Below are positions 8,524-44,868 of a stretch of DNA of 45,914 nt, piece by piece (positions within the stretch are counted from its first letter, which is position 1; every line of letters starts with the position of its first letter). The notes beneath the pieces were generated by a model that was given only the letters and a program-made list of their open reading frames with translations, did no database searches and was not told the DNA's origin. Made by a program: the position numbers and the translations under genes. This DNA is from an uncultured Bacteroidales bacterium (GTDB taxonomy: Bacteria > Bacteroidota > Bacteroidia > Bacteroidales > Bacteroidaceae). Where the stretch lies: the NCBI GenBank assembly GCA_902779315.1, contig CACZBC010000012.1, forward strand, positions 1 through 45,914. The letters are read 5' to 3'.

Positions 8524-8640
8524 ACGTGTGTCATCGGTAAACATCAAACGTGACGATGGCGAACGTCAAACGTGACGATTGCAAACGTCGCACTATACGA
8601 TTGGCAACGTAACACTATACGATTGCAAACGTAACGTGCC
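8524..8640 (+). repeat. 22-bp-period intergenic array A
   Basis: Four exact-length 22-bp units start at 8548, 8570, 8592 and 8614, preceded by one degenerate unit of about 24 bp. The cores read ACGATGGCGAACGT, ACGATTGCAAACGT, ACGATTGGCAACGT and ACGATTGCAAACGT. The array ends GTGCCTAG, touching the mutS stop codon. It lies between mutS and the next gene on the minus strand, with no hairpin terminator visible. Confidence 0.85.
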
Positions 8641-11261
8641 TAGTTGCTTCCCTTAACCAGTTTCTTTATGTCGTTCAACTTGCTGAGCGCCTCGAAGGGG
8701 GTCAGGTTGTTGATGTCCAAACCGAGTATCTCGTCGCGAATCTGGCAGAGAACCGGGTCGTCGAGCTGGAAGAAGTTCATCTGCACGCCACTATCTGCGC
8801 CTTGATCCGTCTTGATCTTTCCACCCAGTTGCTGGTGGTTGACGGCTCCCTCGAGCTCCTTCAGGATGACATTTGCCCTTGCAACAATGGCTCTGGGCAT
8901 GCCTGCGAGTTTTGCCACATGGATGCCAAAGCTGTGTTCCGACCCGCCTCGTTCGAGCTTGCGAAGGAAGATGACCTTTCCGTCGACTTCCTTCACGCTC
9001 ACATTAAAGTTTTTGATGCGCGAGAAGGAGCGTTCCATCTCGTTCAACTCGTGATAGTGCGTGGCAAAGAGTGTGCGGGCATGACCGCGATTATTCTCGT
9101 GTATGTACTCGACTATAGCCCATGCAATCGAGATGCCATCGTAGGTGCTCGTGCCTCTGCCAAGTTCGTCGAAGAGCACCAGACTGCGTTCCGACAGGTT
9201 GTTCAGGATGCCTGCAGCCTCGTTCATCTCAACCATGAAGGTGCTCTCGCCTATACTGATGTTGTCGCTTGCCCCTACTCGAGTGAAAATCTTGTCAACA
9301 TAACCGATTCGCGCACTTTCGGCCGGCACGAAACTTCCCATTTGAGCGAGAAGTGTGATGAGTGCGGTTTGACGAAGCAAAGCACTCTTACCAGCCATAT
9401 TCGGACCTGTAATGATGATGATTTGCTGTGTCTGGGTGTCGAGGAAAACATCGTTCGCGATGTAACGTTCCCCGACGGGGAGCTGCTTTTCAATAACCGG
9501 ATGACGACCTCCATGTATGTCTATCACATCGCTATCATCGACGATAGGACGGATGTAACGATTCTCCTGAGCACTTTGGGCGAAGGAAAGCAGGCAATCG
9601 AGTTGGGCAAGCAGGGAAGCGTCCTTCTGTATGGGAGCGACATAGGCTGCCAAAGCCGTGATGAGACTGTCGAAGAGTTGGGCTTCGAGACTGAGGATGC
9701 GTTCCTCCGCACCCATTATCTTGTCCTCGTATTCCTTGAGCTCCTGGGTGATGTAACGTTCTGCCTGAGTCAAGGTCTGCTTGCGAATCCAGTCGGAAGG
9801 CACTTGATCCTTGTACGTATTTCGCACCTCGAGGTAGTAGCCAAACACGTTGTTGTAGCCGATTTTCAAGCTTTGGATACCTGTCGCCTCAATCTCTCTT
9901 TGCTGCATCTCCAGCAAATAGCCCTTACCTTGGAACGCAATCTTTCGCAACTCGTCGAGTTCCGCATTCACGCCATCCATGATGACACCGCCATTCGCAA
10001 CCAGCAAAGGGCAGTCGGGACGCACTTCGCGAGCAATTCGGTCGCGTATCTCGGCACAAAGATCAAGCTGCTGAGCTATCTCTCTTAACGTGCCGTCTTC
10101 GGCATTCTGGCACGTTAACTTTATCGATTCAACTGCCTGCAAAGCCACTCTTAACTGCACAACATCGCGAGGTGAAACACGCCGAACACTCACTTTCGAA
10201 ATGATGCGCTCCAGGTCGCCTACTGTTTGCAAAGGTTCCAAGACAGCCTCTCTCGTGTCGGGATTGCGGAAGAAACTCTCCACGACATCTTGTCTTTTAC
10301 TGATCTGAGCAGGGTCTTTCAAGGGGAAGAGCATCCATCGATGCAACATGCGGGCTCCCATCGGAGTGACGGTCTTGTCGATGACGTCGAGGAGCGAAAT
10401 GCCGCCTTCGTTCATGCTGCCCACCAACTCGAGGTTCCTTACCGTGAACTTGTCGAGACGCACAAACCTATCCTCCTCGATACGACGCAGGGCCGTGATG
10501 TGTCCAAGCAGTTGGTGCTGCGTCATCTCCATGTATTGCAGGATAACGCCGGCTGCGATGACGCCACTCTTCAAGTGCTCCACGCCAAAGCCTTTCAGGT
10601 TCTTCACCTCGAAATGGCGCAGCAACTTTTCCTTTGCCGACTGTTCTGTGAAGGCCCAATCATCGAGTTCGAAAGTGACGTAGCGTGAGCCGAAACTTCC
10701 CTCGAACATCATCTTTTTGCCTCGTTCGTAGAGAACTTCCTTCGGAGCAAACGATGCCATGAGTTTATCGACGTAGTCCGTCGTGCCTTCTGTCACGAGA
10801 AACTCGCCCGTACTGATGTCCAAAAGGGACATTCCGCAAGCCTGTTTGCCGAAATGTATTGCGCAAAGGAAGTTGTTTTCCTTGTGGTTGAGCACCGTAT
10901 CCGCCATCGTTACGCCAGGCGTGACCAGTTCTGTGATGCCTCGCTTGACGAGTGTTTTCGTCAGTTTCGGGTCTTCCAGTTGGTCGCAAATGGCAACCCT
11001 TTTGCCTGCCCTGACGAGTTTCGGCAGATAAGTATCGAGGGCATGATAGGGGAAGCCGGCCATCGCGATGCTTTGCGTGACTCCCGATTTGCCGTTGTTT
11101 CGATGCGTAAGCGTGATGCCGAGAATCTCCGCAGCAATCACTGCATCGTCGGCATATGTCTCGTAGAAGTCGCCGCAACGGAACAGCAGGAGCGCCTCAG
11201 GATGCTTCGCCTTGAGGTCGTAGAACTGTTTCATCATCGGAGTCAGCGCTTCTTGTGCCAT
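8640..11261 (-). CDS. mutS: DNA mismatch repair protein MutS
   Basis: An 873-residue protein, normal length for MutS. The mismatch-reading loop has the Phe-x-Glu pattern in [11 protein letters not shown] (F32, E34). Connector, lever and clamp regions follow. The ABC-type ATPase has Walker [14 protein letters not shown] at about residue 620, then [18 protein letters not shown], Walker [17 protein letters not shown] and the switch His in [10 protein letters not shown]. MutS binds mismatches and recruits MutL. The start is 5 bp after the stop of the upstream lipoprotein gene, so the two probably form an operon driven from near 12117. Confidence 0.98.
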
Positions 11262-11266
11262 ATTCC

Positions 11267-12067: not shown

Positions 12068-12109
12068 TCTTTTCCTTCCTTTATTTGTTATTATGTGGAA
12101 TATGCTCTG

Positions 12110-12117
12110 CAAAGATA
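12110..12117 (-). promoter_or_regulatory. -7 element for the lipoprotein-mutS operon
   Basis: TATCTTTG on the minus strand matches the Bacteroidota -7 consensus TAnnTTTG, about 40 bp upstream of the lipoprotein start. No clear TTTG at -33. It lies back to back with the GH51 promoter. Confidence 0.6.
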
Positions 12118-12161
12118 CAAAGAAATTGAGAATTAAGAAAGAAGAATTGAGAATTATTTCG

Positions 12162-12169
12162 TATCTTTG
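12162..12169 (+). promoter_or_regulatory. -7 element for the GH51-transporter operon
   Basis: TATCTTTG, 28 bp before the GH51 ATG, matches TAnnTTTG. The -33 box is weak. Transcription would start around 12175, giving a short leader. Confidence 0.6.
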
Positions 12170-12197
12170 TGGGCGAAATAACAAAACATTTGAAATC

Positions 12198-14195
12198 ATG
12201 AAACGCATTTTGACTTTTGCAGTCATTGCCTTGGCTGCCTCCCTTAACATCGAATCCGCACAGCCGATGAAAGCTCCGAAAGGCGGCAAACCGATCAGTG
12301 ACGAACTACTTGGCATCTTCTTCGAGGACATCAGCTATGCTGCCGACGGCGGCATCTTTGCCGAACTCGTGCAGAACGGCTCGTTCGAATATAATCCTAC
12401 AGAGCGCGACGGATGGGGACCTGGCACATCGTGGCGGTTTGTTCGACCTGGTCACTCACTGGGAAGAATAGAGCCTCGCATGGACAATCCCTTGCATCCG
12501 AACAATCCCACATACATGCGTGTTTACATCGAACGCGTGGGACATTACCCCGACTTTGACGGCTGGACGGGCGTCGGCCTGGAGAACAGCGGTTTTGACG
12601 GCATTTCGGTGAAGGCTGGACAGAAGTACGACTTCTCCGCTTTCCTGCGTAATGTGGAAGGAGGAAACAAGGAAGTTCGTGTCGTGCTGGTTGAGCCAGG
12701 ACGTCCCGCCAAGGTTCTTGCCGACCAGACAATCGTGGCGTCTTTGAACGCTTGGCAGCAAATCCCGACGACGCTCACGCCTTCGGAGAGCAGCTCCTCT
12801 GCCGTCCTGCAACTCCTTGTCTTGGGCAAAGGAGCCATCGATATTGACCAAGTTTCGCTCATGCCTCAAGATACATACAAGGGACACGGACTTCGCAAGG
12901 ACCTGATTCAAGCGCTTGCCGACCTGAAGCCCAAGTTCATGCGCTTTCCTGGCGGTTGTGTCGTGCATGGAGGCGGCGACGGATTCTGGGGAACCTATCG
13001 TTGGAAGACGACTATCGGACCGCGTCACGAACGCAAACATCTGAAGAACACCTGGGGCTACCATCAGTCGATGGGACTCGGTTACTACGAATATTTCCAG
13101 CTTTGTGAAGACCTCGGAATGGAGCCTGTTCCCATCCTTCCTTGCGGCGTATCGTGCCAGGGGACAAATGGTGGCTGGGGTATGCCCGGGCAGGCACAGG
13201 ATGTGGTGCCGATGTCGGAGATGGACGAATGGACGCAGGACGCGCTCGACCTCATCGAATGGGCAAATGGCGACGTCACCACAAAGTGGGGCAAGAAGCG
13301 TGCCGAACAGGGACATCCCGAGCCGTTCCACCTGAAATATCTCGGTTTGGGCAATGAGGAACGCATTTCTCCCGAATTTTGCGAACGTTTCAAATACATG
13401 TACGAGCGTGTCACGAAAGCCCATCCCGAAATAGTCATCGTGGGAACTGTCGGCCCAGGCTCGCATCCGGGCAACAGCGACTACGACAACGGATGGAAAC
13501 TTTGCGACGAGCTGGGCATACCCTTGGCTGACGAGCACTACTACGAGCCTCGCGACTATTTCCTGAACAACCGCCAATACGACAGCTATCCCCGTGGCAA
13601 GAAGACAAAGATCTATCTTGGCGAATATGCTGCCAAAGATTCGAAACTCATCGACGCACTTGCCGAAGGACTCTATCTGCTGCATGTGGAGCGCAATGCC
13701 GATGTGGTTTGCATGACGAGCTATGCGCCTCTCTTTGCACGCAAGAACAACACTTCATGGAATCCCGACCTGATTTATTTCGACAACGAACGCCCCTACC
13801 TGACCTGCAGCTACTATGTTCAGCAGATGTTCGGGCAGTCGGCGGGACAGTATTATTATGGCGATTGCGTTCGCTTCGAAGGCGACAAGGCCGGTGTTGT
13901 CCAGCCCGTCGAGAACAGTCACTACGGTCAGTCGGTCGTCCTGAACGCAAAGACGCGCCGCCTCTACGTGAAACTCTGCAATGCCACGAACGGGAAGAAA
14001 CTGGCTCACCTCAACCTGAGTCGCTTCGGCAGCCTGAAAGCTGGCACGAAGACGTTGCTCTGCGGACAGGCAGAAGACAAGAACAACTTCGAGGTCCAGC
14101 CTGTTGCTCCCATCACGGAACCCTTCAAGGCAAAGAGCAAGGCTGACTTGGAACTGCCGCCTTACTCCTTTACAATGCTGGAGATTGCTTTATGA
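12198..14195 (+). CDS. Alpha-L-arabinofuranosidase, GH51
   Basis: I take the ATG at 12198, giving 665 residues with a signal peptide (KRILTFAVIALAASLNIESA); the open frame further upstream crosses the promoter. The N-terminal GH51 block ISDELLGIFFEDISYAADGG is followed by a CBM-like beta domain. The catalytic barrel has FPGGCVVHGG, the acid/base Glu in GLGNEE (about residue 386) and the nucleophile Glu in YLGEYA (about 474). A C-terminal beta-sandwich ends PPYSFTMLEIAL. It releases arabinofuranose from arabinoxylan or arabinan in the periplasm. Its TGA overlaps the ATG of the next gene by 4 bp (ATGA), so translation is coupled. Confidence 0.94.
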   Translation: MKRILTFAVIALAASLNIESAQPMKAPKGGKPISDELLGIFFEDISYAADGGIFAELVQNGSFEYNPTERDGWGPGTSWRFVRPGHSLGRIEPRMDNPLHPNNPTYMRVYIERVGHYPDFDGWTGVGLENSGFDGISVKAGQKYDFSAFLRNVEGGNKEVRVVLVEPGRPAKVLADQTIVASLNAWQQIPTTLTPSESSSSAVLQLLVLGKGAIDIDQVSLMPQDTYKGHGLRKDLIQALADLKPKFMRFPGGCVVHGGGDGFWGTYRWKTTIGPRHERKHLKNTWGYHQSMGLGYYEYFQLCEDLGMEPVPILPCGVSCQGTNGGWGMPGQAQDVVPMSEMDEWTQDALDLIEWANGDVTTKWGKKRAEQGHPEPFHLKYLGLGNEERISPEFCERFKYMYERVTKAHPEIVIVGTVGPGSHPGNSDYDNGWKLCDELGIPLADEHYYEPRDYFLNNRQYDSYPRGKKTKIYLGEYAAKDSKLIDALAEGLYLLHVERNADVVCMTSYAPLFARKNNTSWNPDLIYFDNERPYLTCSYYVQQMFGQSAGQYYYGDCVRFEGDKAGVVQPVENSHYGQSVVLNAKTRRLYVKLCNATNGKKLAHLNLSRFGSLKAGTKTLLCGQAEDKNNFEVQPVAPITEPFKAKSKADLELPPYSFTMLEIAL

Positions 14196-15187
14196 ACATC
14201 CTCCTTTCCGTAAGTCGTTGGCTCGCCCGCTACACGAGCCTGTTCATCATACTGGTTGCAGTCGTCAGTTTCCTCTTTCCTCAGACATTCGCTTGGGTGC
14301 AGCAGGGGCAAAGGGCATCCGTCATTCTCGGCCTCATCATGCTGACGATGGGCTGCACGCTCTCCACCGAGGACTTCCGCATCCTGCTTTCCAGACCCAT
14401 CGACATACTGATAGGAAGCATCGCGCAATACACCATCATGCCGCTTGTGGCGTGGACATTGGCTCGGATATTCCACCTCGATACGTTCATGACGGCAGGC
14501 ATCATACTGGTAGGCTGCTGTCCCGGAGGGGTGAGCAGCAACATCATGAGTTTCCTTTGCAAAGGCGATGTGGCTTATAGTGTCGGCATGACAACCGTCA
14601 GCACCTGTCTTTCGCCCATTGTGACGCCACTTCTCGTCCTTTGGCTTGCAGGGGCGGAGATTGACGTGGATGCTTGGGGGATGTTCCAGAACATCTTGCT
14701 CGTGACGCTTCTGCCCGTGACGCTTGGAGTCGCATTCAACTATTTCTTGGGCAAGAGAGAAGACTTCAAACTGATCCAGGGCATCATGCCAGGCATAAGC
14801 GTGCTCTGTCTGGCTTGCATTGTGGGAGGCGTCATCTTCACGGTTCATCCGCAACTCCAGGCAAACGGGTTGCGTTTGATAGCCCTCACACTTGCCGTCG
14901 TCACCCTCCACAACGGCATAGGTTACCTGCTTGGCTACTTTGTGGGCGAGGCGTTCGGCTTCAACACAGCCAAGCGTCGCACTTTAAGCATCGAAGTCGG
15001 TATGCAGAATGCAGGCATGGCGACCGTGCTGGCACGCAACTTCTTTGCTTCTCCGGCCATGATTGCGACGAACCCGATGGCAGCTCTTGCCGTCATTCCC
15101 TGTGCCATCTCGTGCGCCTACCATAGCATCTCCGGCACCTTGCTGGCAGGCTTCTTCACGTGGCAAGACGAACGCCGACAAACTTAG
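14192..15187 (+). CDS. BASS-family (bile acid:sodium symporter-like) transporter
   Basis: A 331-residue, almost wholly hydrophobic protein with about nine or ten membrane segments. The BASS signature is clear: GCCPGGVSSNIMSFLCKGDVA starting at residue 108, and a second conserved block EVGMQNAGMATVLA near residue 268. Family members use sodium to move bile acids, pantothenate, pyruvate or other organic anions; substrate cannot be read from sequence. It is coupled to the arabinofuranosidase by a 4-bp ATGA overlap, which suggests a link to sugar or uronate-derived compounds, but that is inference. No hairpin terminator follows; array B begins 11 bp after the stop. Confidence 0.9.
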   Translation: MNILLSVSRWLARYTSLFIILVAVVSFLFPQTFAWVQQGQRASVILGLIMLTMGCTLSTEDFRILLSRPIDILIGSIAQYTIMPLVAWTLARIFHLDTFMTAGIILVGCCPGGVSSNIMSFLCKGDVAYSVGMTTVSTCLSPIVTPLLVLWLAGAEIDVDAWGMFQNILLVTLLPVTLGVAFNYFLGKREDFKLIQGIMPGISVLCLACIVGGVIFTVHPQLQANGLRLIALTLAVVTLHNGIGYLLGYFVGEAFGFNTAKRRTLSIEVGMQNAGMATVLARNFFASPAMIATNPMAALAVIPCAISCAYHSISGTLLAGFFTWQDERRQT

Positions 15188-15198
15188 TCGAGCGTCGC

Positions 15199-15286
15199 AT
15201 TTTACGATTGGCATCGTCGCACTATACGTTTGCCATCGTCACACTATACGTTTGGGAACGTCACACTATACGATTGCCATCGTCAC
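15199..15286 (+). repeat. 22-bp-period intergenic array B
   Basis: Four units of exactly 22 bp start at 15199, 15221, 15243 and 15265. The cores are ACGATTGGCATCGT, ACGTTTGCCATCGT, ACGTTTGGGAACGT and ACGATTGCCATCGT. Spacers are CGCACTAT or CACACTAT. It follows the BASS transporter gene directly. Confidence 0.9.
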
Positions 15287-15429: not shown

Positions 15430-18243
15430 ATGAAACACAAATTTTTAAACAAACTATGGCTGCGAGTCGGCATGATCGTAGCCGTGATGACAACCGCCCT
15501 ATCAAGCACAGCTTGGGCAGATCCTGTGACTGTTACCAAAACCACATTTTCTGGTCTTTCAGGAACTGTAGGTGACAAAGTGACGTATGCTACTTACAGA
15601 GGTGGTGGCACTGCTAATCCTGCAATGAATTCAGGTGTTATTCGCTTGTATCAAGGCAGTAGTAGTACGACAGGTGGCTATGTGGTTATCAGTGTGCCAG
15701 AAGGCTATACCATTATTAGTGCAACAATTCAAAGTACAATGGCAACAACAACAGGGTATAAGTTGACAGACTCAGATCCTGGCTCAACGACCCCTGCAAA
15801 AAATTCTTTTAACGTTAATAACTATTCTCTTTCTGCAAACACAGATTATACGGTAAGTAATATATCTACACGTTATATAACATTTGCTTGCTTTGGGACA
15901 ACTTCAAGTACTAGACTTTATTTGTCAAAGATCAGTGTAACATACCAAGAAGAAAATGGCACTTCTCTTACTGAATCCGACTTAGCATTAACAAATGCTC
16001 CCATAGCTCTCAACTTTGACCTTTATAATAATGCAGAGCCTCAAACTATCAATTTTACAAGTTCAAGCACTGGTGCTGTGACGTTTAGTAAGAGCGAATA
16101 TGTTAGGACAAGTGTTAGCGGAAACGCAATAACAGTTACTCCTATTAAGGCAACACCTTCTGCGCAGACCATTACTGTTAGCCAAGCAGCAGATGATACA
16201 TATGCAGAAGGTTCTGCTACATTCACTGTATCTGTTGCAAATAGTACTCCTCAATACAATGTTACTTATAAAGCTAATGGTGGAACAGGAAGTGACGTCA
16301 TAGAGACATACTATCAAGGCGACAATGTTCCTGTGGCAACCAATACATTTACAAGATTTGGTTACATATTTAGTAAGTGGAATACTTCTGCAGATGGTAC
16401 GGGCACAGACTATTTACCAGAAGCAACTATTACAAACATTAGTTCAAGCATTGACCTTTATGCTCAATGGGAAGAAAGCAGTGAAATAATTTATGACTTT
16501 ACAGAGATAGATGGGTTTAGTGGCTGGAATACGACTTACCAAGAACATGTAGTTAATTATACTGATGCAATGGTTACCTTTGCTTCTGCTAACAGACAAC
16601 CTAATTCCGCAATTTCTGACCAGCCTGTAACCAAAGGTGGTGATGTATCTTTGGTGTTAACTGATGGCTCAACAATTAACTCTGCTACTTTTGTTTGTAC
16701 TCAATGGGGTGACAAGACACAGACCATAACTATGTGGTATAGTACAGATGGTGGAGAAACATATACATCAACAAGTGTAACTTCCACGAATTTTACTATA
16801 ACGGCAAGTAATCTTCCAAAAGGCACAAATGCTGTGAAGATTAGATTTAGTAGCACAAGTAATCAAGTAGGCATTACTTATGCGACAATTGTAAAGAATA
16901 TAGATAATCGTGAAGAAGCAGAAATAGCATTCTCAGTTGAGACATTGACCTTTACAGAAGGCCACGAATACACTGCCCCGACATTCAACAATCCTAATAA
17001 TGTGGAAGTCACATTCACAACAACTAACGAAAGTGTCGCTTCTTGGAATAATGGTCTTGTACTTGGAGGTGAAACAGGCACAACTACCATTACTGCCACT
17101 TTCGAAGGCAACGATAATTATAAGCCTGCAACTGCAACACTTGTGGTTACAGTTGAGAAAGACTTTGGCTTTGTGGATGTTGTTATAGGTTCAGGAGTTT
17201 ATCAAAAGATAACTTCTCTTTCTGACCTTGAAGCAGGCAAACGCTATTTAGTTGTTTACGAATATGAGGAAGGCGGTTCGCTTATGGGTAAGGTGATGAA
17301 TGGTGTTGACAATACTAATATGTATGCTCATATTACAACAACAAGCATTTCAGATAATAAGATTGATAACACCACACTTGCTGCAACTCCTATTGTGCTG
17401 CAAGATGCAGGTGAAGGTAGTTGGTTCTTAGTAGAGAACGACAAGTGCCTCTATGTTAATGCAGATGGCAACTATTTACAAAGTACAGATAACCCATCAG
17501 CAAGTGGAACGGAATGGACAATCTCTTATGTGGAAGATGTCTTGAAGATTAACAACAATTATCTTCCTAATCGCTATATAATGTATAATAAGCAATTTCC
17601 TCGATTTGCATGCTACACCAATACACAACAAAACGTTACACTTTATAAGGAGTTGTCAACCGATGTGCTTGAATACGAATCTGTTTCCGTTGGTGATCTT
17701 AAGTACAGCACTTATGCTAGCGACAAAGCTCTTGACTTTACGGGTTCAAGCATCAAGGCGTTCTATCCTACTGTTGAAGGCTCGACTTTGACCTTCCATG
17801 AGATTACAAAGGTTCCTGCTGGCACTGGTGTGCTGCTTTATAGTGCAAATGGTGCTATCACGGAAGACATCCTTGTTTGCACAGGTGAGACGGATGCTGT
17901 TGAGAACAATGTCTTCGTTCGTGGCAGAGGTGAACGTGTGTCTTACGACGAAACGACCCAAAAATACATCTATGTTCTCTCTAAACCTCAAGACGATAAC
18001 CTTGGTTTCTACAAGGCTAACAAAAATATGGTTGCTACGAATCGTGCATATATTCGGGTTTCTGCAGAACTTTCTGGCGCTAAGTCCTTCACTATCAACC
18101 TTGAAGACGATCCAACAGGCATAGTCAACCTTAACGATAACGTTAACGCTAACGAGGGAGCTATCTACAATCTTGCAGGCCAGCGTCTTAGCAAGATGCA
18201 GAAGGGTATCAACATTATTAACGGTAAAAAAGTTTTGAAGTAA
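15430..18243 (+). CDS. Large secreted protein with InlB B-repeat and type IX-like C-terminus
   Basis: A 937-residue protein with a signal peptide ending about STAWA (residue 31). Residues about 276-345 form a Listeria-Bacteroides (InlB B-) repeat: VTYKANGG, then FGYIFSKWNTSADGTGTDY and IDLYAQWEE. Around it are serine/threonine-rich beta domains, including a bacterial Ig-like segment (about 505-580). The end is a short tail with VNLNDN, IYNLAGQRLSKMQKGINI and GKKVLK, typical of the type IX-like sorting tails of Prevotella. No catalytic motif seen; adhesin or surface-layer role is a guess. Codons are visibly more AT-rich than in neighbouring genes, which may indicate transfer or relaxed selection. 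The stop TAA overlaps the next ATG by one base. Confidence 0.7.
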   Translation: MKHKFLNKLWLRVGMIVAVMTTALSSTAWADPVTVTKTTFSGLSGTVGDKVTYATYRGGGTANPAMNSGVIRLYQGSSSTTGGYVVISVPEGYTIISATIQSTMATTTGYKLTDSDPGSTTPAKNSFNVNNYSLSANTDYTVSNISTRYITFACFGTTSSTRLYLSKISVTYQEENGTSLTESDLALTNAPIALNFDLYNNAEPQTINFTSSSTGAVTFSKSEYVRTSVSGNAITVTPIKATPSAQTITVSQAADDTYAEGSATFTVSVANSTPQYNVTYKANGGTGSDVIETYYQGDNVPVATNTFTRFGYIFSKWNTSADGTGTDYLPEATITNISSSIDLYAQWEESSEIIYDFTEIDGFSGWNTTYQEHVVNYTDAMVTFASANRQPNSAISDQPVTKGGDVSLVLTDGSTINSATFVCTQWGDKTQTITMWYSTDGGETYTSTSVTSTNFTITASNLPKGTNAVKIRFSSTSNQVGITYATIVKNIDNREEAEIAFSVETLTFTEGHEYTAPTFNNPNNVEVTFTTTNESVASWNNGLVLGGETGTTTITATFEGNDNYKPATATLVVTVEKDFGFVDVVIGSGVYQKITSLSDLEAGKRYLVVYEYEEGGSLMGKVMNGVDNTNMYAHITTTSISDNKIDNTTLAATPIVLQDAGEGSWFLVENDKCLYVNADGNYLQSTDNPSASGTEWTISYVEDVLKINNNYLPNRYIMYNKQFPRFACYTNTQQNVTLYKELSTDVLEYESVSVGDLKYSTYASDKALDFTGSSIKAFYPTVEGSTLTFHEITKVPAGTGVLLYSANGAITEDILVCTGETDAVENNVFVRGRGERVSYDETTQKYIYVLSKPQDDNLGFYKANKNMVATNRAYIRVSAELSGAKSFTINLEDDPTGIVNLNDNVNANEGAIYNLAGQRLSKMQKGINIINGKKVLK

Positions 18244-18425
18244 TGAAAAAGTCATATATCACACCAGAGGCACTTCAGGTTAGCCTCACTATGAGTTTAC
18301 CTCTTGCAGGTTCTCCCCTCAATGTCACTAAAGATGGTGACACAGCAGAGCTGAACGACGAATATACCGAAGAAGATGAAGCTCTTGTAAAAGGCACTAC
18401 CAATCTATGGGACGAAGTATGGTAA
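18243..18425 (+). CDS. Small acidic 60-residue protein coupled to the secreted protein
   Basis: The ATG shares one base with the upstream stop (TAATG), so translation is coupled. It begins MKKSYITPEALQVSLTMS, continues through a short neutral part (LPLAGSPLNV) and ends in an acidic tail finishing LWDEVW. The opening MKKxYIxPE and the acidic, Trp-ending tail recall many tiny uncharacterised ORFs I associate with Prevotella genomes, often beside secreted proteins. No known domain; there is no typical hydrophobic signal peptide. It could be a chaperone-like partner, a peptide precursor or an unrecognised regulator; sequence alone cannot decide. Confidence 0.6.
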   Translation: MKKSYITPEALQVSLTMSLPLAGSPLNVTKDGDTAELNDEYTEEDEALVKGTTNLWDEVW

Positions 18426-18516: not shown

Positions 18517-18655
18517 CAGTGTCGTTTGAAAATGACTGCAGTGTCGATGCCAAACGTCACACTAGATGTTTGCAATCGTCACACTAGATGTTTGCAATCT
18601 TCACGTGTGATGTTTGCAATCTTCACACTAGATGTTTGCGAATTAAGTTAACCTA
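18517..18655 (+). repeat. 22-bp-period intergenic array C
   Basis: Units begin at 18517, 18539, 18561, 18583, 18605 and 18627, all 22 bp apart. Middle units share GATGTTTGCAATCGTCAC or the CTTCAC variant, with ACTA or GTGT at the front. The first two (CAGTGTCG type) and the last (GCGAATTAAGTTAACCTAG) are divergent. It lies between the two hairpins at a convergent gene junction. Confidence 0.85.
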
Positions 18656-18728: not shown

Positions 18729-21700
18729 TTATTGTCCTGCCATAATGTTCAGAACGGCTACGAAGTCTGCGATGGTTACCTCGCCATCGCCGTTAACGTC
18801 AGCATCTCCGGGAACTTCCTGGCCTGCCATGGCATTCAGAACGGCTACGCCATCGGCAATTGTGACATCGCCATCGACGTTCACGTCGCCTGGCTTGCTG
18901 TAACCACATAGCGCAATATGGTCGCCACGCTCAACTTGCCATTGGAGCAAGGGCCAACCGAGTCCGACAGTGCCATCCTGGTGCCAGCCTTCCCACTTCC
19001 AAACGATGTCGCTGATCTCCTCCTGGCTCTGGATGCCAAAGTAGAGGAAATTGCTGGTGCTGCAGCCCTGCTGGTCGGCTATGGCTGCAGTGGCCTGGCT
19101 GCCGTTTGCCTTGCCCGCTGAGTAGCTGTTAACGACGGTCAGCGAGGGACTGCCAATTCCGATGAAGTCACCCAGAATGCCTTCGCCATGGATGTTGGCA
19201 TTGGCATAGACGTTGGTTATCGTGCCATTGACGGCTACACCTGCAACGGCACCGGCTGCACTGGTGCTTCCTGCATCCACATTAGCCAGTTTGCCATGGA
19301 CGTAGCAGTTCTCCACAACTGCTGTCCCTTCGTCTGTTCCAAGCAGACCAGCCAAGATGCCTGTGTTCTGAGCTATGCCGCTTTCGACACTTGCATTGTA
19401 GAAGCCAAGGTTCTTGACGCTACCCACGAGGGCTCCGAAGAAGCCCGTCTCGAAGCCGTTGTCCTGGTGAGCAGCGACGGTCAGGTTCTTGATGATGTAT
19501 TTGTTACCATCCAGTGAAATGCCCTTTCCATAGCCGTCTTCGTAACTGTTGGCATTGAAGGTGCTGTTCAGGGGCCACCATCCTTCGCCCTTCATGTCGA
19601 TGTCGGATGTGAGCTTGAAATAGACTGTCTTGCCGTCGATGAGCCGGTCGCGAACGGACATGAGGTCGTACTTGTCGGCAATCTGATAGGGGTTGGCTTC
19701 GCTGCCATTACCTTTCGTCTGGAGCAGGGTAGCCTTCATGCTGGCTTTGTCCATGTCGAACTCGATGAGGTACTTACCCGCAGGCGAGATGCGCCATGTG
19801 CGGTCCAGACCACGAACGAGGTCGGTCACTTCCTGACCGCTGCCAATCTCGAGGTATTGCTCTTCGCTGCCATATCGGGCCTCTGTCCAACTGCCGCGAC
19901 CGGTCTGGCTGAAGTTCACCATCTCGTCTGTGCTGCGACAAGCCATGATGCCGAACGAGCAGAAGGGATTGGAGTTGTCGTTAACGAGGTCAACGACACC
20001 GACGTACTTGCCGCCGCCCATGTGCTGCAAGGGCACCTGCTCGTCGTTCTTCCAACGCATGAGGGAACCTTGACGGTTGTTGAGCGTACCGGTCACGAAG
20101 ACTGCGTTGTCCCAATTGTATTCGTCCTGCAGGTCGAAGTCGACGGTCATGTTCTCCAGGTCGAGCACAACGTTGTAGGTGCCATTCAGAGCCTGGAAGT
20201 CGCTGCCACCCTGCTGCACATCGAAGTGCTGACGACCGGGAGTGATGAAGCTACGAGTGCCATCGGGACACTTGTAAACGGTGTTGATGCGACGGAAATA
20301 GAGGCCTGCGCGCTGATAGCCGCCAATGCGACGGCTGCGGTCCTGCAAGGTGACAGAGCCGACGAACTTGCCGTCCTCGTTCATTTGGAGGGGATAGAGC
20401 GAGCACATCTGGCTGTAGTTCCATTCGCCATTTTCGCTGTTCTCGTCGTAGAGGTCGCCCTGGACATAGACAACGCCACCAATGATAGGATTCGTCATCA
20501 GTTCCGCAATCTTCTGCTCAACCTCTTCGTCGGTCAGAGAACCGTCAACGACAATTCCCTCAAGCTCGTTATAGACCTCGGACATCTGGTCCTGGAGTTC
20601 GCCGGGCTCAAGTCCGTCTGCCATATCCGTGGCGAATTGTGCAATCTCGAACAGGCGCTTGTAGGCGTTTGCACTGGCAGGAATTGCAGCGAACTCGGCG
20701 TTCATCTCCTCGATGAGTCGCAGCTGTGTCTCGGTGTCGGCACTCCTTGCCTCTTCAACCTTGTTGCGAATGGCATCGATATGCGACTGGCTGATGTAGT
20801 ATTCCTGGTCGTAGCGTTGCTGGTCAATGAGCTCGATGCGGTCGCTATACTGATCGAGGATGTTGTTGATGGCATTGCTGCTCTCACCAAGGAACGTCAG
20901 GCGGAAGTTGCCCCAAATGGTCAGGTTCTTGTTGCGCCAAGGCTGGTCGACGCTACGGATACCTATAGTGAGCTTGCCATCCTTGACAATGCCGTATGCT
21001 GTCTGCTCGTAGCGGTCGCCATGGAATGCAAAGCTGGCGGTATAGATGTTATCGGGGATGAAGCCCTCCTCCGTATCAATGTCGACGCTACCTGTCTGCT
21101 CGCCATTGTGAGGAGCCGACTCGTCCTCGGTTGCATCGTAGCGGCAGTTGACACCATTCTGTGCGTCGGCATAGCTTACTTGGTCGGAATAAACGCTCAT
21201 CACGGGAGTTGCGTATTCGCCAAGGAAGAGTTGTGCCGGGATGATATCCGTGCCGTCGAAGAGACCTTCGCGACCTGCACCAGGACGATGGAAAGCTTGT
21301 GCTGTGAGGGCATAGATGCCGTTGCTCAAACCAGTTATCTCCTGGCTGACTTCAAATGTCAGGTTGTAAGCAGCTGCGACAGGGAAGACGTCGGTGAAGC
21401 CACCATTGTGAACCAAGTTATAACCGCTTTCTGTGCGACCTTGGGTAACGGTCCAGCCGTTCCAAGCCTCTGCATTGTCGAACTTGGGATTGACAATGAG
21501 AGAGGTAAGGTCGGAGCCCTCGGAAGCACTGTTCAGGATGGCTGTCTGCAGCAACTGTTGTGCAAAAGCAATCTCAGCATTGAGTTGCTCTGCATCGAGC
21601 TGGCGGTTTTCCACTATATATAAATATGTACCGTTGGGGAAGTCTTCTGAAGGTTCATTTTCCTCTGTCAAGTAAGTCTCGAGCTTGTCGGCATCTTCGC

Positions 21701-29639: not shown

Positions 29640-29727
29640 GTGCCATGTTTGAAAACGTGGCTAAGGTAAAATCCAAACGTCACACTATACAAATGCAAAC
29701 GTCACTGCAGTCGTTAGGCGATTTCAC
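29640..29727 (+). repeat. 22-bp-period intergenic array D
   Basis: Four units start at 29640, 29662, 29684 and 29706, each 22 bp, the most degenerate array of the six. The third (ACTATACAAATGCAAACG then TCAC) is closest to consensus. Unlike the others, it lies upstream of both flanking genes. Confidence 0.7.
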
Positions 29728-35019: not shown

Positions 35020-35408
35020 CCATCGTCATAACGGCAATTCTGGTGCTAGGCTGCGTGGCAGCACTCGCACAATGGTGGCATCAGCGGCGTCATCCTGAAG
35101 AAAAAGATGTTCCGCAGGTCAATCCTTTTGAGATGGAATGCTGCGGACAGCACGAAGTCTGCGAGAAAGAAAGTCTGTTGGCTGCAATCAGCCGAGACAT
35201 CGTATACTACAACGACGAGGAACTCGACCGCTTTCGTGGCAAGTCAACATACAGCGAAGAAGAAACAGAGGAGTTTCGAGAGGTGCTCTACACAATGCGA
35301 AGCGACGAAGTGGCTGGTTGGGTTAGAAGTCTGCAATTGCGCCAAATCAACATTCCAGACGAGATAAAAGACGAAGTTTTCCTTATTGTTGGAGAACGAA
35401 GACAATAA
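35010..35408 (+). CDS. Small membrane-anchored protein with CCGxHxxC motif
   Basis: 132 residues from the ATG at 35010, overlapping the aroA stop by 10 bp; a TTG 15 bp earlier is less likely. One N-terminal membrane helix (FITIVITAILVLGCVAALA) is followed by a basic stretch (HQRRH), which predicts a cytoplasmic C-terminal domain. That domain carries ECCGQHEVCEKES (C44, C45, H48, C51), a compact possible metal or redox site. The helical remainder is acidic and includes VAGWVRSLQLRQINIPDEIKDEVFLIVGERR. I recognise it as a conserved Bacteroidales family but know no function. Its place just before porW and porX makes an envelope or secretion role worth testing. Confidence 0.75.
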   Translation: MFITIVITAILVLGCVAALAQWWHQRRHPEEKDVPQVNPFEMECCGQHEVCEKESLLAAISRDIVYYNDEELDRFRGKSTYSEEETEEFREVLYTMRSDEVAGWVRSLQLRQINIPDEIKDEVFLIVGERRQ

Positions 35409-38406: not shown

Positions 38407-38431
38407 TAACAACTAACGCTAATATTTCCAG

Positions 38432-39982: not shown

Positions 39983-39991
39983 GGAAAAGGT

Positions 39992-40405
39992 ATGGAGATA
40001 AAGATTGAAAATATTGAGGATATTGCGTCTGCAGCACGCAAATTTGTCGATGAAATGGGCGAAAATTGCGTTTTTGCCTTCTATGGAAAGATGGGCGCAG
40101 GCAAGACGACATTCATCAAAGCTATCTGCGAGGTTTTGGGCGTGAAGGATGTTGTTACGTCACCCACGTTCGCCCTAGTCAATGAATATGCCGATGCGGA
40201 AGGCCAACCTGTTTACCATTTTGATTTCTATCGCATCAAAAATATGCGCGAAGCCTACGATATGGGCTGCGAAGAATACTTCTACAGCGGTTATCCTTGT
40301 TTTATAGAATGGCCTGAGTTGGTCGAGGAACTGCTTCCTGATGATACAGTCAAGGTAAATATCGAAGTCCTTGAAAATGAGTCGCGTATCGTCACAATAG
40401 GCTAA
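39992..40405 (+). CDS. tsaE: tRNA threonylcarbamoyladenosine biosynthesis ATPase TsaE
   Basis: 137 residues, normal length. Walker A is GKMGAGKTTFIKAI (about 31-44), then the TsaE signature VTSPTFALVNEY, a YHFDFYRI block and FIEWPELVEELLP. TsaE is the ATPase partner of TsaB and TsaD in making t6A37 on ANN-reading tRNAs. It closes the aroA-to-tsaE run. No terminator hairpin is seen after it; array E starts 16 bp after the stop. Confidence 0.95.
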   Translation: MEIKIENIEDIASAARKFVDEMGENCVFAFYGKMGAGKTTFIKAICEVLGVKDVVTSPTFALVNEYADAEGQPVYHFDFYRIKNMREAYDMGCEEYFYSGYPCFIEWPELVEELLPDDTVKVNIEVLENESRIVTIG

Positions 40406-40420
40406 CCCTCCAAACATAGC

Positions 40421-40508
40421 ACGCTTAGTTCGCAAACATAACGTTTTACGTCGGGCAACGTAACGTTATACGTTTGCCATCGTAACACGTCACGTTTGAC
40501 ATTTAGCT
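40421..40508 (+). repeat. 22-bp-period intergenic array E
   Basis: Four 22-bp units start at 40421, 40443, 40465 and 40487. Cores include ACGTCGGGCAACGT and ACGTTTGCCATCGT, with spacers ending GTTAT or GTTTT. It ends GCTTGCCTGTGTTTTT. It fills a convergent junction (tsaE and GH78) that has no evident hairpin terminator. Confidence 0.85.
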
Positions 40509-40538
40509 TGCCTGTGTTTTTGAAGTACTCTCGAAGCG

Positions 40539-43283
40539 TTATTTCTTCAGACGATAGATAAGACGATATGTGCCGCTTCCAAGTTCGATGGGATCCGTTG
40601 GATTATAGCGAGTCGGTTCTGGATCGGGTTTGCGGTTACGCTCCTTCTCGTTGAAGACCAAGCCGCTACGATTGAGGCTGCGAGGTGCCATCTCAACGGA
40701 TTCGGCATTTAACGCTTCAGGACAAAGCACAGTTGCAGTCGTGCCGACGGGAATGGTGAGGCGAAGGTCGAAAGTGCTTGCCGAACGTTTCCAATCGACA
40801 GTAATGTCTCCGTAAGGTGTTGGCTTAAGTGCCCTCACAAAAGTAAGGCTGTCAGGCAATTGCGGTTGTATGGTGAAATGGCGATAGGCGGGCTTGGAAG
40901 CATCACCCTGTATGCCTGCAAGTGCCTGGTAGAACCACGAGCCGATGCCGTTGTAACAATTATGGATGCGACTTCTTCTCGCATTCCAATGCTCCCAAGT
41001 CGTTGTTGCTCCATTGTCTATCATGTAGAGGTAACCAGGGAAACTATGCTGTCGAAGCATGTCGGCCATGAACTGAACATTGCCTGCCTTCGTACACCAT
41101 TGCGTCAAGATGGGGATGCCTACAAGTCCTGTGAAAAGGTGTCCGTCGAAGCGTTCGTACGTTTCTCGCTTTAGGGCATTGTTCACTTTCTGCTTCAAAT
41201 CATCTGGAACGGCACCTACAAAGAGAGGGAAACTCTGGTCGAGTTGCAAGCCATGGGCGTAGGTGGCATTCTTCTTATTATAATATGTAGCGTGGATGCG
41301 CTGGTTGATGTCCGTCTGCTTCTGCCTGTAGAGCTGTGCCTCGTCGGCCTTCCCCAGCAGTTCTGCTGTGTTTGCCATGATGCCATACACCCAGCTCATG
41401 GAGCAGGAGTTAACTAGGTCGATGCTCTCGGTATATGTCTGATGCTCCTCGTTAGGCAAAGCCCAGTCGCCCAGGAACCAGTCCTTGCGTCGCGTGCTGG
41501 GCCATCTGTGCTCCACCGTCAGCAGCCCGTCGGGCATGTATTGCTCGGCATAAGAAAGGTAACGCTGCATGTTGGGGTAGTACCATTCGAGGAGTCGGAT
41601 GTCGCCATATTGCTGATAAGTCTGCCAAGGGGCATTTGCGATGAAGGCACACCAGAATGGCCCGCCACCACATCGCCAGAATGCCGGTCCAACATGAGGC
41701 ACTTCGCCATCGTCGCCTTGTGCATCTGTGTAGCCTTGTAACCAGTTGCGATAGAGCGGATACATGTCGTATTGCAGTTGCGCAGCCAAGATAGAGGCAT
41801 TGCCATCGCCACCATAACCTTGTCGTTCGATGTGTGGGCAATCCACCATATAGCCGCCAAGTGTCAGGCAACGGAAAGTGTAGTGCACCATATCATGGAT
41901 GGCACAAAAGTCCTTGTCGCTGCAGACGAAAGACGAACCTTTCTCGTAACCCGTATGGATAAGCATGCCTGCGATGTCCGAGAGGGCAGGCTGATGGTCC
42001 AGTCCTTCTATTTTGATGTATCGATAAGCGTGGTAGTTGAACTTGTTGCAGAACGTTTCATCACCCTCGCCACTTGCAATGTAATAGTCTGTGAAAACGC
42101 CTTCATCGAAGTCGCCGCTTAGTGCAAGCATGTCGCAGTAACTGATAGTGATGCGCTGTCCCTTGCGAAGTTTTCCGAGGTGGATGCGTGTCCAGCCCAC
42201 GATGCTGCGACCCATATCCACCATCCACTTGTTGCCGTCGAAGCGCGAGACTTGTTGTGCCTGCACTTCTGTCATGATACGGTTTGGCTCACACATCATC
42301 GGCGTAATTTCTTGAGCAGGGAGATCCATTGTTGTTACGCCTTGCCAAGAGACGGCGTCGAGCGTAGAGGAAGAGAAGTTGGGCAGGAGTTCGGCTGCCT
42401 TTACGACTTCGCCTCCGAATGTCCAGGCTCCTGCGATGCCCTCGTCATAGTAGCCGCTTTCCCTAGTCTGCCAAGTGTCGTCGGTTGCGACGAGTGTCTG
42501 CCATTCGTCTTTCTCCTTCAGTTGGTCTATTTGTGCCAAGACGTAAGGCCCACCTTTGGCAACACCTACAATGTCCGGATTGTCGTAGAAACCGCCACCA
42601 AGCCAGATGACGAGGTCGTTGCGACCTTTGCGTAGTTTCCCGTCCAGACAGTAGGTCATGGCTTGATGCCGTTTGCTGAATTCCACTACGGAAGGTGCCA
42701 AGACATCATCACTCACACGTTCTCCGTTGAGATATATCTCGTGGTAGCCTAACGTGCTGAGGTGCAGGAAGGTGGGTGACTTGGTGTCCGTGCATTCGAA
42801 TGACTTGTACACGAGCGGCTGAACCTTGCGGTCCGTTCGCTCCATGCCGATGTATTTGCCCTTCCAAAGTGTTTTGTCGAGGATACCGACAGAGAATTTC
42901 GCACCACGAGCCCAGTCTCCGCCTTTGCCGTTCTCGTCCCAAACCTTTACTTGCCAATAGACAACGCTGCGACTTTCAAGTGATTTGCCTGCGTAAGCAA
43001 CCCATATCGACTGCTCGCTTTCAACTTTGCCACTATTCCAAAGGTCTGCCTTGTCTTCCGAGAGAAGGTCTGGCCTCGAGGCAGCAAGGATTTGATAGGC
43101 CGATTGGCGAACGCTGTTGTGGTCTTGTGTGAGCTTCCAGCTCAGGGCTGGTGCCGTTGTGTTGATGCCCCAAGGCTGATGCAACAATTCGCAGCGAAGG
43201 TCGTATGCCGTGAGGGCTGCCTGCATGTACGAGGCTGTGAGCAGAAGCATCGCAGCCATAATGTCTCTTGTCTTCATCTTCAT
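40539..43283 (-). CDS. Alpha-L-rhamnosidase, GH78 (second copy, divergent type)
   Basis: Start taken at 43283 (914 residues); a second in-frame ATG follows at 43277. The signal peptide is RDIMAAMLLLTASYMQAALT. The N-terminal rhamnosidase domain shows YDLRCELLHQPWGINTTAPALSW. The barrel has the active-site segment DCPHIERQGYGGDGN at about residue 480, one residue shorter than the DCPxRxER of the first GH78 here. DNGATTTWEHWNA and HNCYNGIGSWFYQALAGI follow, and a C-terminal beta domain ends TYRLIYRLKK. It should cleave alpha-L-rhamnosides in the periplasm. The two enzymes share only family-level similarity, so different linkages or substrates are likely. Divergent from an SSS symporter gene. 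Confidence 0.9.
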   Translation of the reverse strand: MKMKTRDIMAAMLLLTASYMQAALTAYDLRCELLHQPWGINTTAPALSWKLTQDHNSVRQSAYQILAASRPDLLSEDKADLWNSGKVESEQSIWVAYAGKSLESRSVVYWQVKVWDENGKGGDWARGAKFSVGILDKTLWKGKYIGMERTDRKVQPLVYKSFECTDTKSPTFLHLSTLGYHEIYLNGERVSDDVLAPSVVEFSKRHQAMTYCLDGKLRKGRNDLVIWLGGGFYDNPDIVGVAKGGPYVLAQIDQLKEKDEWQTLVATDDTWQTRESGYYDEGIAGAWTFGGEVVKAAELLPNFSSSTLDAVSWQGVTTMDLPAQEITPMMCEPNRIMTEVQAQQVSRFDGNKWMVDMGRSIVGWTRIHLGKLRKGQRITISYCDMLALSGDFDEGVFTDYYIASGEGDETFCNKFNYHAYRYIKIEGLDHQPALSDIAGMLIHTGYEKGSSFVCSDKDFCAIHDMVHYTFRCLTLGGYMVDCPHIERQGYGGDGNASILAAQLQYDMYPLYRNWLQGYTDAQGDDGEVPHVGPAFWRCGGGPFWCAFIANAPWQTYQQYGDIRLLEWYYPNMQRYLSYAEQYMPDGLLTVEHRWPSTRRKDWFLGDWALPNEEHQTYTESIDLVNSCSMSWVYGIMANTAELLGKADEAQLYRQKQTDINQRIHATYYNKKNATYAHGLQLDQSFPLFVGAVPDDLKQKVNNALKRETYERFDGHLFTGLVGIPILTQWCTKAGNVQFMADMLRQHSFPGYLYMIDNGATTTWEHWNARRSRIHNCYNGIGSWFYQALAGIQGDASKPAYRHFTIQPQLPDSLTFVRALKPTPYGDITVDWKRSASTFDLRLTIPVGTTATVLCPEALNAESVEMAPRSLNRSGLVFNEKERNRKPDPEPTRYNPTDPIELGSGTYRLIYRLKK

Positions 43284-43302
43284 CTTTTTGCTATTTCTGC
43301 TG

Positions 43303-43330
43303 CAAAGATACAAAATTTTTCGTACCTTTA
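43303..43330. promoter_or_regulatory. Divergent -7 elements, GH78 / SSS symporter
   Basis: TATCTTTG on the minus strand (43310-43303) lies 20 bp before the GH78 start. TACCTTTA on the plus strand (43323-43330) lies 33 bp before the symporter ATG. They face apart with 12 bp between them. Neither has a clear -33 box, so an activator may be needed. Confidence 0.5.
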
Positions 43331-43362
43331 CACTCGAAATCAACAATAATGTCATTCTCGCT

Positions 43363-44811
43363 ATGTCCAATTACCTTGTATTCTCTGCCTTAGGGCTTTA
43401 CATATTCCTGCTTGTCCTCTTTACAAAGTTAGTGAAGTCGAAAGGCGACAACAACGCTTTCTTTCGTGCTGGAAGGAAATCACCTTGGCTGCTCGTCGCT
43501 TTTGGAATGATAGGGGCGAGCATTAGTGGTGTGAGCCTTGTCAGCGTGCCTGGCTGGGTGCATCAGAACGGCATGACTTACATCCAGATGTGCTTGGGCT
43601 TTTTTGCCGGCTTTGTTACCATTGCCTACGTATTGCTCCCTCTATATTATCGGCTCAGGCTAACCAGCATCTACGGCTACCTTGCAGAACGTTTCGGACG
43701 TCGCAGCCATCTGACGGGAGCCTGCTTCTTCCTCTTGAGCAAACTGACAGGAGCCGCAGCCCGTCTGTTCTTGACTTGTACTGTTCTTCACGAGATGGCT
43801 ATCCGACCTTTAGGTCTTCCCTTCGCTTTCACAGTGGGTGCCGTTCTGTTCGCCATCTTTCTTTATACGCGGAAAGGAGGCATCGAGAACATCGTCCGAA
43901 CAGATGCCTTGCAGACATTCTGCATGCTTGTCGCCACAGGTTGCATAGTCTGGGGTGTGTCAGAAAAGATGAATCTGTCGCCATCAGGTATTGTGGGAAC
44001 CATCGCTCAAAGTCCGATGGGAAGCCTGTTCTGCTGGGATGCATCGAGCACGCAGTTCTTCCTGCGTCAATTCATCAACGGTATGTTCATTACCATCGTG
44101 ATGAACGGCCTCGACCAAGATATGATGCAAAAGAATCTTACTTGTGTCTCTCTTCAGGCAGCACAGAAGAATATGTGCCTTTATGGCCTTTGCATCCTGC
44201 CCGTCAACCTGCTCTTTCTCGCGCTTGGTGTACTTCTTTATACTTTTGCGACTCAGCAAGGACTCGCCATTCCTGAAGCAGGAGACCGCTTGTTGCCTAT
44301 GCTTGTAGGCTGTGGAGCACTTGGAACCTTCGTCGTTTTCCCTTTCACAATTGGCATCACGGCAGCTGCGCTTTCAAGTGCGGATAGCGCGATGACGTCT
44401 CTTACCACAAGCATTTGTGTGGATATCCTCAGAATAGAGCAGGAAGGGTTTGAGCCAAAGAAGGCTTTACGCGTTCGTTATCGCGTACATATCTTGGTTG
44501 CGCTTGCCTTCGCGCTTTGTATTGCAGTTTTCCATATTGCAGGAAGCGGTACGATTATCGACACCATCTATCGCCTGGCAGGCTATACCTACGGCCCATT
44601 ATTAGGGCTTTTCAGCTTCGGACTCTTCACTCGGAGAAGGGTGAACGACAGAATGGTCCCCTATGTTGCAGTCATTTCTCCGATTGTTTGTGCAGTTCTC
44701 GATTACCTCGCACCACTTTTGTGGAACTACCATTTCAGCTACGAACTCCTGCTACTTAATGCCGCTCTGACCTTCATCGGCTTGCTCGTCACCAGTCGTC
44801 GCGTGCCATGA
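43363..44811 (+). CDS. Sodium:solute symporter (SSS family)
   Basis: 482 residues from the ATG at 43363; the open frame before it overlaps the divergent gene. About 13 membrane helices. Family features: N-terminal SNYLVFSALGLYIFLLVLFTK, the FFRAGRKSPWLLVAFGMIGASISGVSLVSVPGWV block and a later SSADSAMTSLTTSI sodium-site helix. SSS carriers take up sugars, sialic acid, amino acids or vitamins with sodium. The divergent GH78 rhamnosidase with shared control region suggests uptake of rhamnose or a rhamnoside product, but this is inferred from position only. The stop lies inside the first unit of array F. Confidence 0.9.
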   Translation: MSNYLVFSALGLYIFLLVLFTKLVKSKGDNNAFFRAGRKSPWLLVAFGMIGASISGVSLVSVPGWVHQNGMTYIQMCLGFFAGFVTIAYVLLPLYYRLRLTSIYGYLAERFGRRSHLTGACFFLLSKLTGAAARLFLTCTVLHEMAIRPLGLPFAFTVGAVLFAIFLYTRKGGIENIVRTDALQTFCMLVATGCIVWGVSEKMNLSPSGIVGTIAQSPMGSLFCWDASSTQFFLRQFINGMFITIVMNGLDQDMMQKNLTCVSLQAAQKNMCLYGLCILPVNLLFLALGVLLYTFATQQGLAIPEAGDRLLPMLVGCGALGTFVVFPFTIGITAAALSSADSAMTSLTTSICVDILRIEQEGFEPKKALRVRYRVHILVALAFALCIAVFHIAGSGTIIDTIYRLAGYTYGPLLGLFSFGLFTRRRVNDRMVPYVAVISPIVCAVLDYLAPLLWNYHFSYELLLLNAALTFIGLLVTSRRVP

Positions 44812-44868
44812 TGCCAAACATCACACTAGTAAATCGCAAACATCAAACGTGAAGTTTGCAAATTAGGC
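44803..44868 (+). repeat. 22-bp-period array F, overlapping the symporter stop
   Basis: Three units start at 44803, 44825 and 44847. The first includes the last three codons of the symporter gene (stop 44809-44811). The array ends AATTAGGCATGCCTCG, like the ends of arrays A and E. Confidence 0.8.

Follow-up and report, generated by a model that had tools for sequence, protein, structure and literature searches.

Intergenic arrays of 22-bp units at regular intervals in a Bacteroidaceae genome and some of its relatives

Introduction

Chromosomal repeats resembling the subject of this work have been described in several bacteria. That subject is a group of six dispersed intergenic arrays, made up of near-palindromic units with a strict 22-bp pitch, found in a stretch of 45,914 nucleotides (hereafter the window; part of contig C12, GenBank CACZBC010000012.1) of the draft genome G000, which comes from an uncultured Bacteroidaceae bacterium (GCA_902779315.1; 2.83 Mb in 107 contigs, 84% complete). 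The Noc/NBS, MatP/matS and SlmA/SBS systems also have dispersed palindromic chromosomal sites, in their case bound by a protein with an organising role. The same holds for the sites of SegB, which are located mostly within genes (PMC12284271). Unlike the sites of these four proteins, the arrays are formed by several units at a fixed pitch, and no second ParB-family protein accompanies them.

Plasmid iterons act as sites of replication origins. They are also tandem sites of about 22 bp, but the arrays number roughly 330 per chromosome (extrapolated from about 92 per 793 kb) instead of marking one origin, and their units are near-palindromic and not directional. The only association with replication genes looked for was among nine scanned window genes near arrays or the contig end, and no initiator family was found there. 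The repetitive extragenic palindromes (REP) and bacterial interspersed mosaic elements (BIME) of E. coli and other bacteria share more features with the arrays, being hundreds of dispersed intergenic clusters of near-palindromes that often lie behind genes (in part after PMC3733652 and PMC6379681). What sets the window-type arrays apart is their strict 22-bp pitch, their even spacing, the lack of a detectable Y1/RAYT transposase in G000, the absence within the genome of compensatory changes supporting a hairpin, and the replacement of the unit between species at some loci. BrickBuilt, a minisatellite MITE (miniature inverted-repeat transposable element) of Porphyromonas gingivalis, is likewise intergenic, from Bacteroidales and built of tandem 23-nt units; according to its description (PMC4596501) it differs in its sequence (AGAYCATARTATCCTCTCRTRTG), in the unit of 23 rather than 22, in having a leader and a tail with inverted-repeat ends and in its 19 copies in one strain, while the ends of the 22-bp arrays show no conserved flank. 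No description of the arrays was found in the literature searched, most subscription journals being outside its reach, and the statement of a preliminary description of the window that they form an unnamed family holds as far as that search extends.

Abundance of the arrays and their 22-bp pitch

Arrays were called in a sample of 793 kb (nine contigs of G000, window included), on which a profile of the 14-bp core was trained, and genes were predicted with our own simple script. The core profile found 91 arrays with at least two cores, adding up to 403 units; the reversed sequence gave none. A two-unit profile gave 91–95 arrays across thresholds from 6 to 18 and only 1–3 in two controls. Lowering the threshold added almost no arrays, indicating that decayed remnants are rare. 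Over the whole draft genome a single-unit pattern with up to three mismatches had 215+180 matches, and the reversed pattern 2+0. The pitch was equally marked: 270 of 296 neighbouring core pairs no more than 70 bp apart were separated by 22, 44 or 66 bp (250 by exactly 22 bp, 18 by 44 and 2 by 66), against a single pair within 70 bp in all of the reversed sequence. In this sample the profile scan suggested in the preliminary description shows a 22-bp spacing far above controls, and the six arrays of the window are a sample of a genome-wide set. They are the following:

Array 1, 8524..8640: four called cores spaced by 22 bp, with half units in addition, profile score 56; neighbours are mutS (8640-11261, minus strand) and a C_GCAxxG_C_C gene (8010-8504, minus strand).
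Array 2, 15199..15286: four called cores, score 49; an SBF-type transporter gene (14192-15187, plus strand) has its stop 12 bp before the start of the array.
Array 3, 18517..18655: six called cores, score 60; follows a predicted small open reading frame (plus strand, ends 18425), and on its other side is the 3' end of a gene (18729-25511, minus strand) encoding a 2260-aa dockerin-bearing protein.
Array 4, 29640..29727: three called cores, score 25, the lowest among the six; within a 643-bp divergent intergenic region.
Array 5, 40421..40508: four called cores, score 42; flanked by tsaE (39992-40405, plus strand) and a gene on the minus strand (40539-43283).
Array 6, 44803..44868: three called cores, score 44; covers the final 9 bp of a symporter gene (43225-44811, plus strand).

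All six were present at the positions first given for them and were recovered by the genome-trained profile (threshold 11). Their 24 called cores at 22-bp steps agree with the about 25 units initially counted. Arrays 1, 2, 3 and 5 each have at least one border no more than about 100 bp from the end of a predicted gene. One further call of two cores (35327-35362) sits within a predicted gene and was not recovered by the two-unit profile; it was taken as chance. An Rfam scan of the window found only tRNA.

Anatomy of the unit

Column information in the unit is about 0.5–1.6 bits per column, and 291 of 312 internal units of G000 have AC or GT, nearly equally often, in the middle of their 8-bp linker; the initial impression that bases drift freely was too strong. 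Linkers are drawn from a small vocabulary (CACACTAG in 82 of 250), and there is no constant repeat with unique spacers, so that the arrays were correctly judged not to be CRISPR. Arrays of at least three cores end at half a core (162 edges), for which reason the unit is best centred on the linker, as a 10-bp arm, AC/GT and a second 10-bp arm. The unit thus seems by nature to be a pair of inverted 10-bp arms with AC/GT between them. Its orientation flips inside some arrays of G000. The arm that contains GCMAWCGTNACACTA is the most constant, and the other is one of three word types (157 of 258 dimers could be oriented). Consensus units of single arrays in different genomes are CAAACGTCAC-AC-GTGACGTTTG (G000), GCAACTTAAC-AC-GTTAAGTTTG (G008), CAAACATCAC-AC-GTGAAGTTTG (G108), CTTACGCTCC-AC-GGAGCATCGG (G114) and CTTGCGGAGC-AC-GCTCCATCGG (G066).

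A clear consensus dyad was found in 123 of 205 arrays, with AC at the centre in 57, GC in 39 and other centres in 27. In G000 and G008 the GC-centred dyad is the second dyad of the unit with the AC centre. The best dyad was even-centred in 75–100% of the arrays of each genome, with the exception of G105 (0/2).

Place on the chromosome and even spacing

The arrays are mostly in non-coding gaps and are densest between convergent genes, which answers the suggestion of the preliminary description that they be mapped against gene ends. Co-directional gaps hold 54 of the 91, convergent gaps 20 and divergent gaps 12, and five calls are on predicted genes. Considering only gaps of at least 80 bp, an array was found in 20/41 convergent, 54/152 co-directional and 12/52 divergent ones. 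The median distance to the stop codon is 33 bp (arrays in co-directional and convergent gaps), and there is no bias in orientation with respect to transcription (17 same, 18 opposite, 20 ambiguous).

The 82 gaps between successive arrays (the five calls on predicted genes being included in these statistics) have a mean of 8.3 kb, a median of 6.7 kb, a minimum of 2.4 kb and a coefficient of variation (CV) of 0.61. Four null models based on random intergenic regions gave a CV of 0.83–0.89, and the observed value or a lower one appeared in 0–1 of 2000 simulations each. Gaps below 3 kb made up 3.7%, while 22–26% were expected. In the sampled part of the chromosome the arrays are over-regularly spaced, with an exclusion zone of some kilobases. 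Profile hits merged with generic 22-lag calls were used as the array sets of relatives, where the same was found in G008 (CV 0.44 vs. 0.81 expected, 0/1000) and G108 (0.30 vs. 0.73, 1/1000) and more weakly in G005 (0.54 vs. 0.83, 48/1000).

The longest array-free gap (C1:59-93 kb, GC 0.40) contains glycosyltransferases and a flippase-like protein among the 8 proteins scanned, and the second longest (C4:9.5-33.6 kb, GC 0.445) a polysaccharide synthesis protein, one of two scanned. Three more long gaps have a GC of 0.45–0.53, and one of them is largely filled by a gene of 3239 codons. The exact unit pattern (one pattern) had no match in viral contigs, and array 2, the sole array used as query, none in plasmids. 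The low GC and polysaccharide-type genes of the two longest gaps, together with the lack of a viral or plasmid match, suggest that the arrays belong to the resident chromosome. The C1 region itself (G000:C1:59400-92900; L049, L050) is a low-GC (0.40) island with nearly all genes on one strand, and the 8 proteins scanned include MatE flippase-like and putAbiC proteins.

The same locus with a different word

Array positions persist in relatives with flanks about 80% identical. By a lag test at loci with both flanks alignable, a 22-bp array was found at 20 of 29 orthologous pairs of array and relative (17 arrays) compared with 5 of 53 control pairs; this count omits the false in-gene call at C12:35318, with its seven negative rows, and is 20/36 with it. 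Some of the nine negative pairs hold weak arrays by profile. One such case is the locus of array 1, which carries a 22-bp array in G005, G108, G088, G008 and G114, of another unit type in all but G008. The words found there are ACGATTGCAAACGTAACACTAT in G000, TTGCAT.TACATGTA.GTGCAA in G005 and G108, TTGCACGGTCGCGACGCTGCAA in G088 and CTCCACGGAGAGTTGGCTTACA in G114, with a variant of the common type in G008. At the locus of array 5, G108 (flanks 95 and 92% identical) has arms that, by eye, changed in matched pairs, left and right, being mostly AACGT/ACGTT in G000 and mostly AACTT/AAGTT in G108, and G005 has a CCCTATAGGG-type 22-bp array. Some relatives thus bear arrays that keep the 22-base pitch with other letters, and this points to a rule that governs length and symmetry and not a particular DNA word.

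Distribution in relatives

A sample of 121 genomes of the genus was drawn from a larger group. The unit of G000 type is abundant in G000 (269 matches), G088 (218) and G108 (202), while the remaining genomes have 13 matches or fewer and 91 of the 121 have none. G008 has 46 arrays of this type in 390 kb. Among the named genomes, an exact match to a longer pattern was found in two yak metagenome-assembled genomes, RGIG9745 and RGIG10220. When no motif was imposed, lag 22 ranked first, or shared the first rank with its multiple 44, in eight congeners out of ten; the exceptions were G043 and G105. The fundamental period was 22 in 79/110 repeats of G000, in 81/114 of G008, G088, G108 and G005, and in 39/121 of six congeners that the G000 profile matched once at most (the runner-up there, 7 bp, had 21). 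Elsewhere in the family, 300 kb of six genomes representing five other genera gave 6/8 repeats of this period, coming from three of the five genera, with none in G293 and G226 (40 kb each). In contrast, no such period was found among 23 repeats of three other families (300 kb) or in the single repeat from E. coli (100 kb). The commonest period in the genus and the sampled sibling genera (pooled samples) is therefore 22 bp, even where the unit is unlike the G000 motif, and several orthologous loci retain a 22-bp array despite changed letters, which gives good support to the original proposal that spacing is under selection.

With the omission of arrays that had a shorter period inside the unit, 164 of 206 join one drifting superfamily by single linkage at 16 of 22 identities (null maximum 15), including 16 of the 22 arrays of G114, and the remaining 42 fall into 33 small clusters. 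For this reason the diversity of the arrays is partly drift within one family and partly unrelated sequence.

A putative chromosome-organising protein and the alternatives

The fixed pitch with changing words, the kept addresses and the kilobase exclusion zone argue for a function at the level of DNA. From the anatomy, pitch, spacing, positional conservation and sequence turnover of the arrays we infer a putative protein with a shifting preference, and it is quite possible, if still short of probable, that the arrays are its binding arrays and that it organises the chromosome every 5–10 kb. The candidate would be a dimeric, cooperatively binding DNA protein occupying the arrays. Each 22-bp unit would offer it two inverted 10-bp half-sites, with junctions of 2 bp (AC/GT) and 0 bp in turn between them, and this alternation would put a dyad at each 11 bp, close to one turn of the helix. 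A platform of about 100 bp would consist of four to five units and be placed in non-coding gaps, preferably behind genes, every 5–10 kb, at which the protein might anchor, load or bridge to give chromosome domains of several kilobases. Its word preference would shift between species and all half-sites would follow, with pitch, symmetry and position retained. More tentative, and in our view doubtful, is the wider proposal of a chromosome-organising code across the family, in which length and symmetry but not letters are conserved, half-site platforms lie every 5–10 kb at conserved intergenic addresses, and the word has been repeatedly replaced across Bacteroidaceae by a fast-evolving architectural protein. 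Such a turnover of words would be comparable to that of eukaryotic centromere repeats.

To our knowledge, how the chromosome is organised in Bacteroidota is little understood, and platforms conserved in position provide a ready probe, as a pull-down fragment of about 100 bp and as a genome-wide ruler for contact maps. They may also be a natural experiment on the joint change of a DNA-binding specificity and of hundreds of sites. If the arrays had no function, both the exact common unit length of unrelated repeats in several species and the mutual avoidance of arrays on the chromosome would need explaining.

A number of observations weigh against a single organising protein. The main weaknesses are the missing binder, which did not emerge when only ParB, serine recombinases and Y1 transposases were looked for and no systematic search was made, and which limits our confidence, and the several unrelated 22-bp families within one genome (8 clusters in 16 arrays of G005, 7 in 22 of G114), hard to square with a single sequence-specific protein. 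The protein on one face of the DNA that the preliminary description suggested is likewise putative, since no binder emerged and the 11-bp AT/GC phasing of wrapped DNA was not seen. A second ParB or Noc was rejected as the candidate, the sole ParB_N match in G000 being the one ParB. The motif has a narrow distribution, as a model built for the common type matched 4 of 81 genomes of the family (G000 112, G054 17, G277 2, G285 1). No clear consensus dyad was found in 82 of 205 arrays, only 80 of the 205 have a dyad individually significant against column shuffles, and the two arms of G000 units often show less symmetry than chance would give, which is not what a classical symmetric operator looks like. 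G114 has no regular spacing (CV 0.76 vs. 0.74, generic 22-lag calls), and the RNAs of the arrays fold with somewhat greater stability than shuffled sequences (mean z −2.1, median −1.65, 60 of 91 arrays).

This folding is also what would be expected of transcribed hairpin arrays acting on RNA in 3' end protection, attenuation or termination, as is thought for REP/BIME, and the near-palindromic units, their closeness to stop codons and their preference for convergent gaps would fit as well. We consider such a role decidedly unlikely. Within G000 no covariation of the arms was seen (267 dimers), several positions are anti-symmetric and the sole covarying pair is formed by the first and last bases of the linker. 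Across species, in an alignment of 35 of 44 segments (nine less regular ones were omitted, a bias toward clean units), pairs centred on the linker covaried beyond all 500 shuffles (0.141 vs. 0.097), but those centred on the core, whose pairing is mutually exclusive with the former, covaried equally strongly (0.145 vs. 0.086). This fits a concerted change of half-sites and not hairpins, and a stem-loop kept by compensatory change was discarded. Nor do the arrays replace terminator-like hairpins, found at 36 of 87 gene ends with an array (16 when shuffled) and 41 of 133 without one (6 when shuffled), and 12 arrays are in divergent gaps. A mutational or selfish origin, in which recombination or slippage extends and copies the arrays and the 22-bp length stems from the copying machinery and not from a function, is unlikely too. 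In its favour, array 3 seems by eye to have fewer units in G108, and some synteny breaks with close relatives fall within arrays, in G008 (arrays 2 and 3) and G088 (arrays 2, 3 and 5). However, the enrichment of breakpoints at arrays that was apparent in these two genomes was gone over all 63 inferred breakpoints, of which 18 were 200 bp or less from an array, a share no higher than that of random intergenic points (31%). A count restricted to long chains in close relatives, being a post hoc choice, was left out of account. The kept positions and the regular spacing with its exclusion zone also speak against it, as does the lack of any conserved leader, tail or end: at the 162 edges information fades past the last half unit, on which ground a MITE was set aside, in a test of flanks common to arrays and not of private ones. 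REP/BIME with RAYT was dismissed likewise, the REP-associated Y1 transposase PF01797 having no match in G000 (84% complete) while being present in 67 of 99 genomes of the order.

Supercoil domains of E. coli are about 10 kb, close to the spacing of the arrays, whose size of about 100 bp and frequent location behind genes would also suit strong gyrase (topoisomerase) sites fixing such domains, like BIME-2. We nevertheless find this quite improbable. The phasing at 11 bp, judged against a flat expectation of 0.095 with no shuffled control, gave a power share of 0.14–0.18 for the GC-step feature in four of six groups, but for AT content the share was 0.05–0.13 over the six, with no consistent excess. 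The 11-bp AT/GC phasing expected of wrapped DNA was not seen in the arrays of these groups, nor the GC phasing of about 11 bp over about 130 bp, the E. coli gyrase motif being phased in GC content at 10.75 bp (PMC6379681); strong gyrase sites of the BIME-2 kind were rejected on this basis. Sites for a serine recombinase, i.e., palindromic arms around a fixed non-palindromic central dinucleotide, are very improbable. The AC/GT centre and the switches of orientation within arrays recall the 12-2-12 architecture of the hix/gix recombination sites, but PF00239 was not found in G000, G008, G088, G108, G005, G114, G016, G043 and G054 (79–97% complete). It was present in four of 17 genomes (G066, G179, G225 and G206) but was not found in any of the six that carry the G000-type motif (G000, G008, G088, G108, G005, G054).

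Other observations

ParB_N had exactly one match in 14 of 16 genomes, including G000, and a second, weaker one in G073 and G201. Places resembling parS numbered four, compared with 11 for a control pattern. A 22-bp array of G005 (L126, C58, about 2336-2414) has one unit with the half-sites GTTTCAC / GTGAAAC, equal to those of parS but with two extra bases between them. In G088 (L106, C40, about 13354-13406) a synteny junction fuses the loci of window arrays 3 and 5 within one array, as would be expected from recombination between arrays.

A terminator-like hairpin adjoins array 3 (by eye). The C-terminal coding stretches of two adjacent large genes (18102-18257 and 18729-18890) match many places in relatives, which makes shared C-terminal domains likely, and a Pfam search placed the dockerin near the C-terminus of the second protein (gene 18729-25511). 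Short tandem repeats of ATGTAGGC type (44894-44932) adjoin array 6. G114 has additional repeats with a 9-bp period (L135-L145; lags 9, 18, 27 and 36). The window also contains AACTATG repeated about six times (2495-2535); a period of 7 bp is the second commonest in the pooled congeners.

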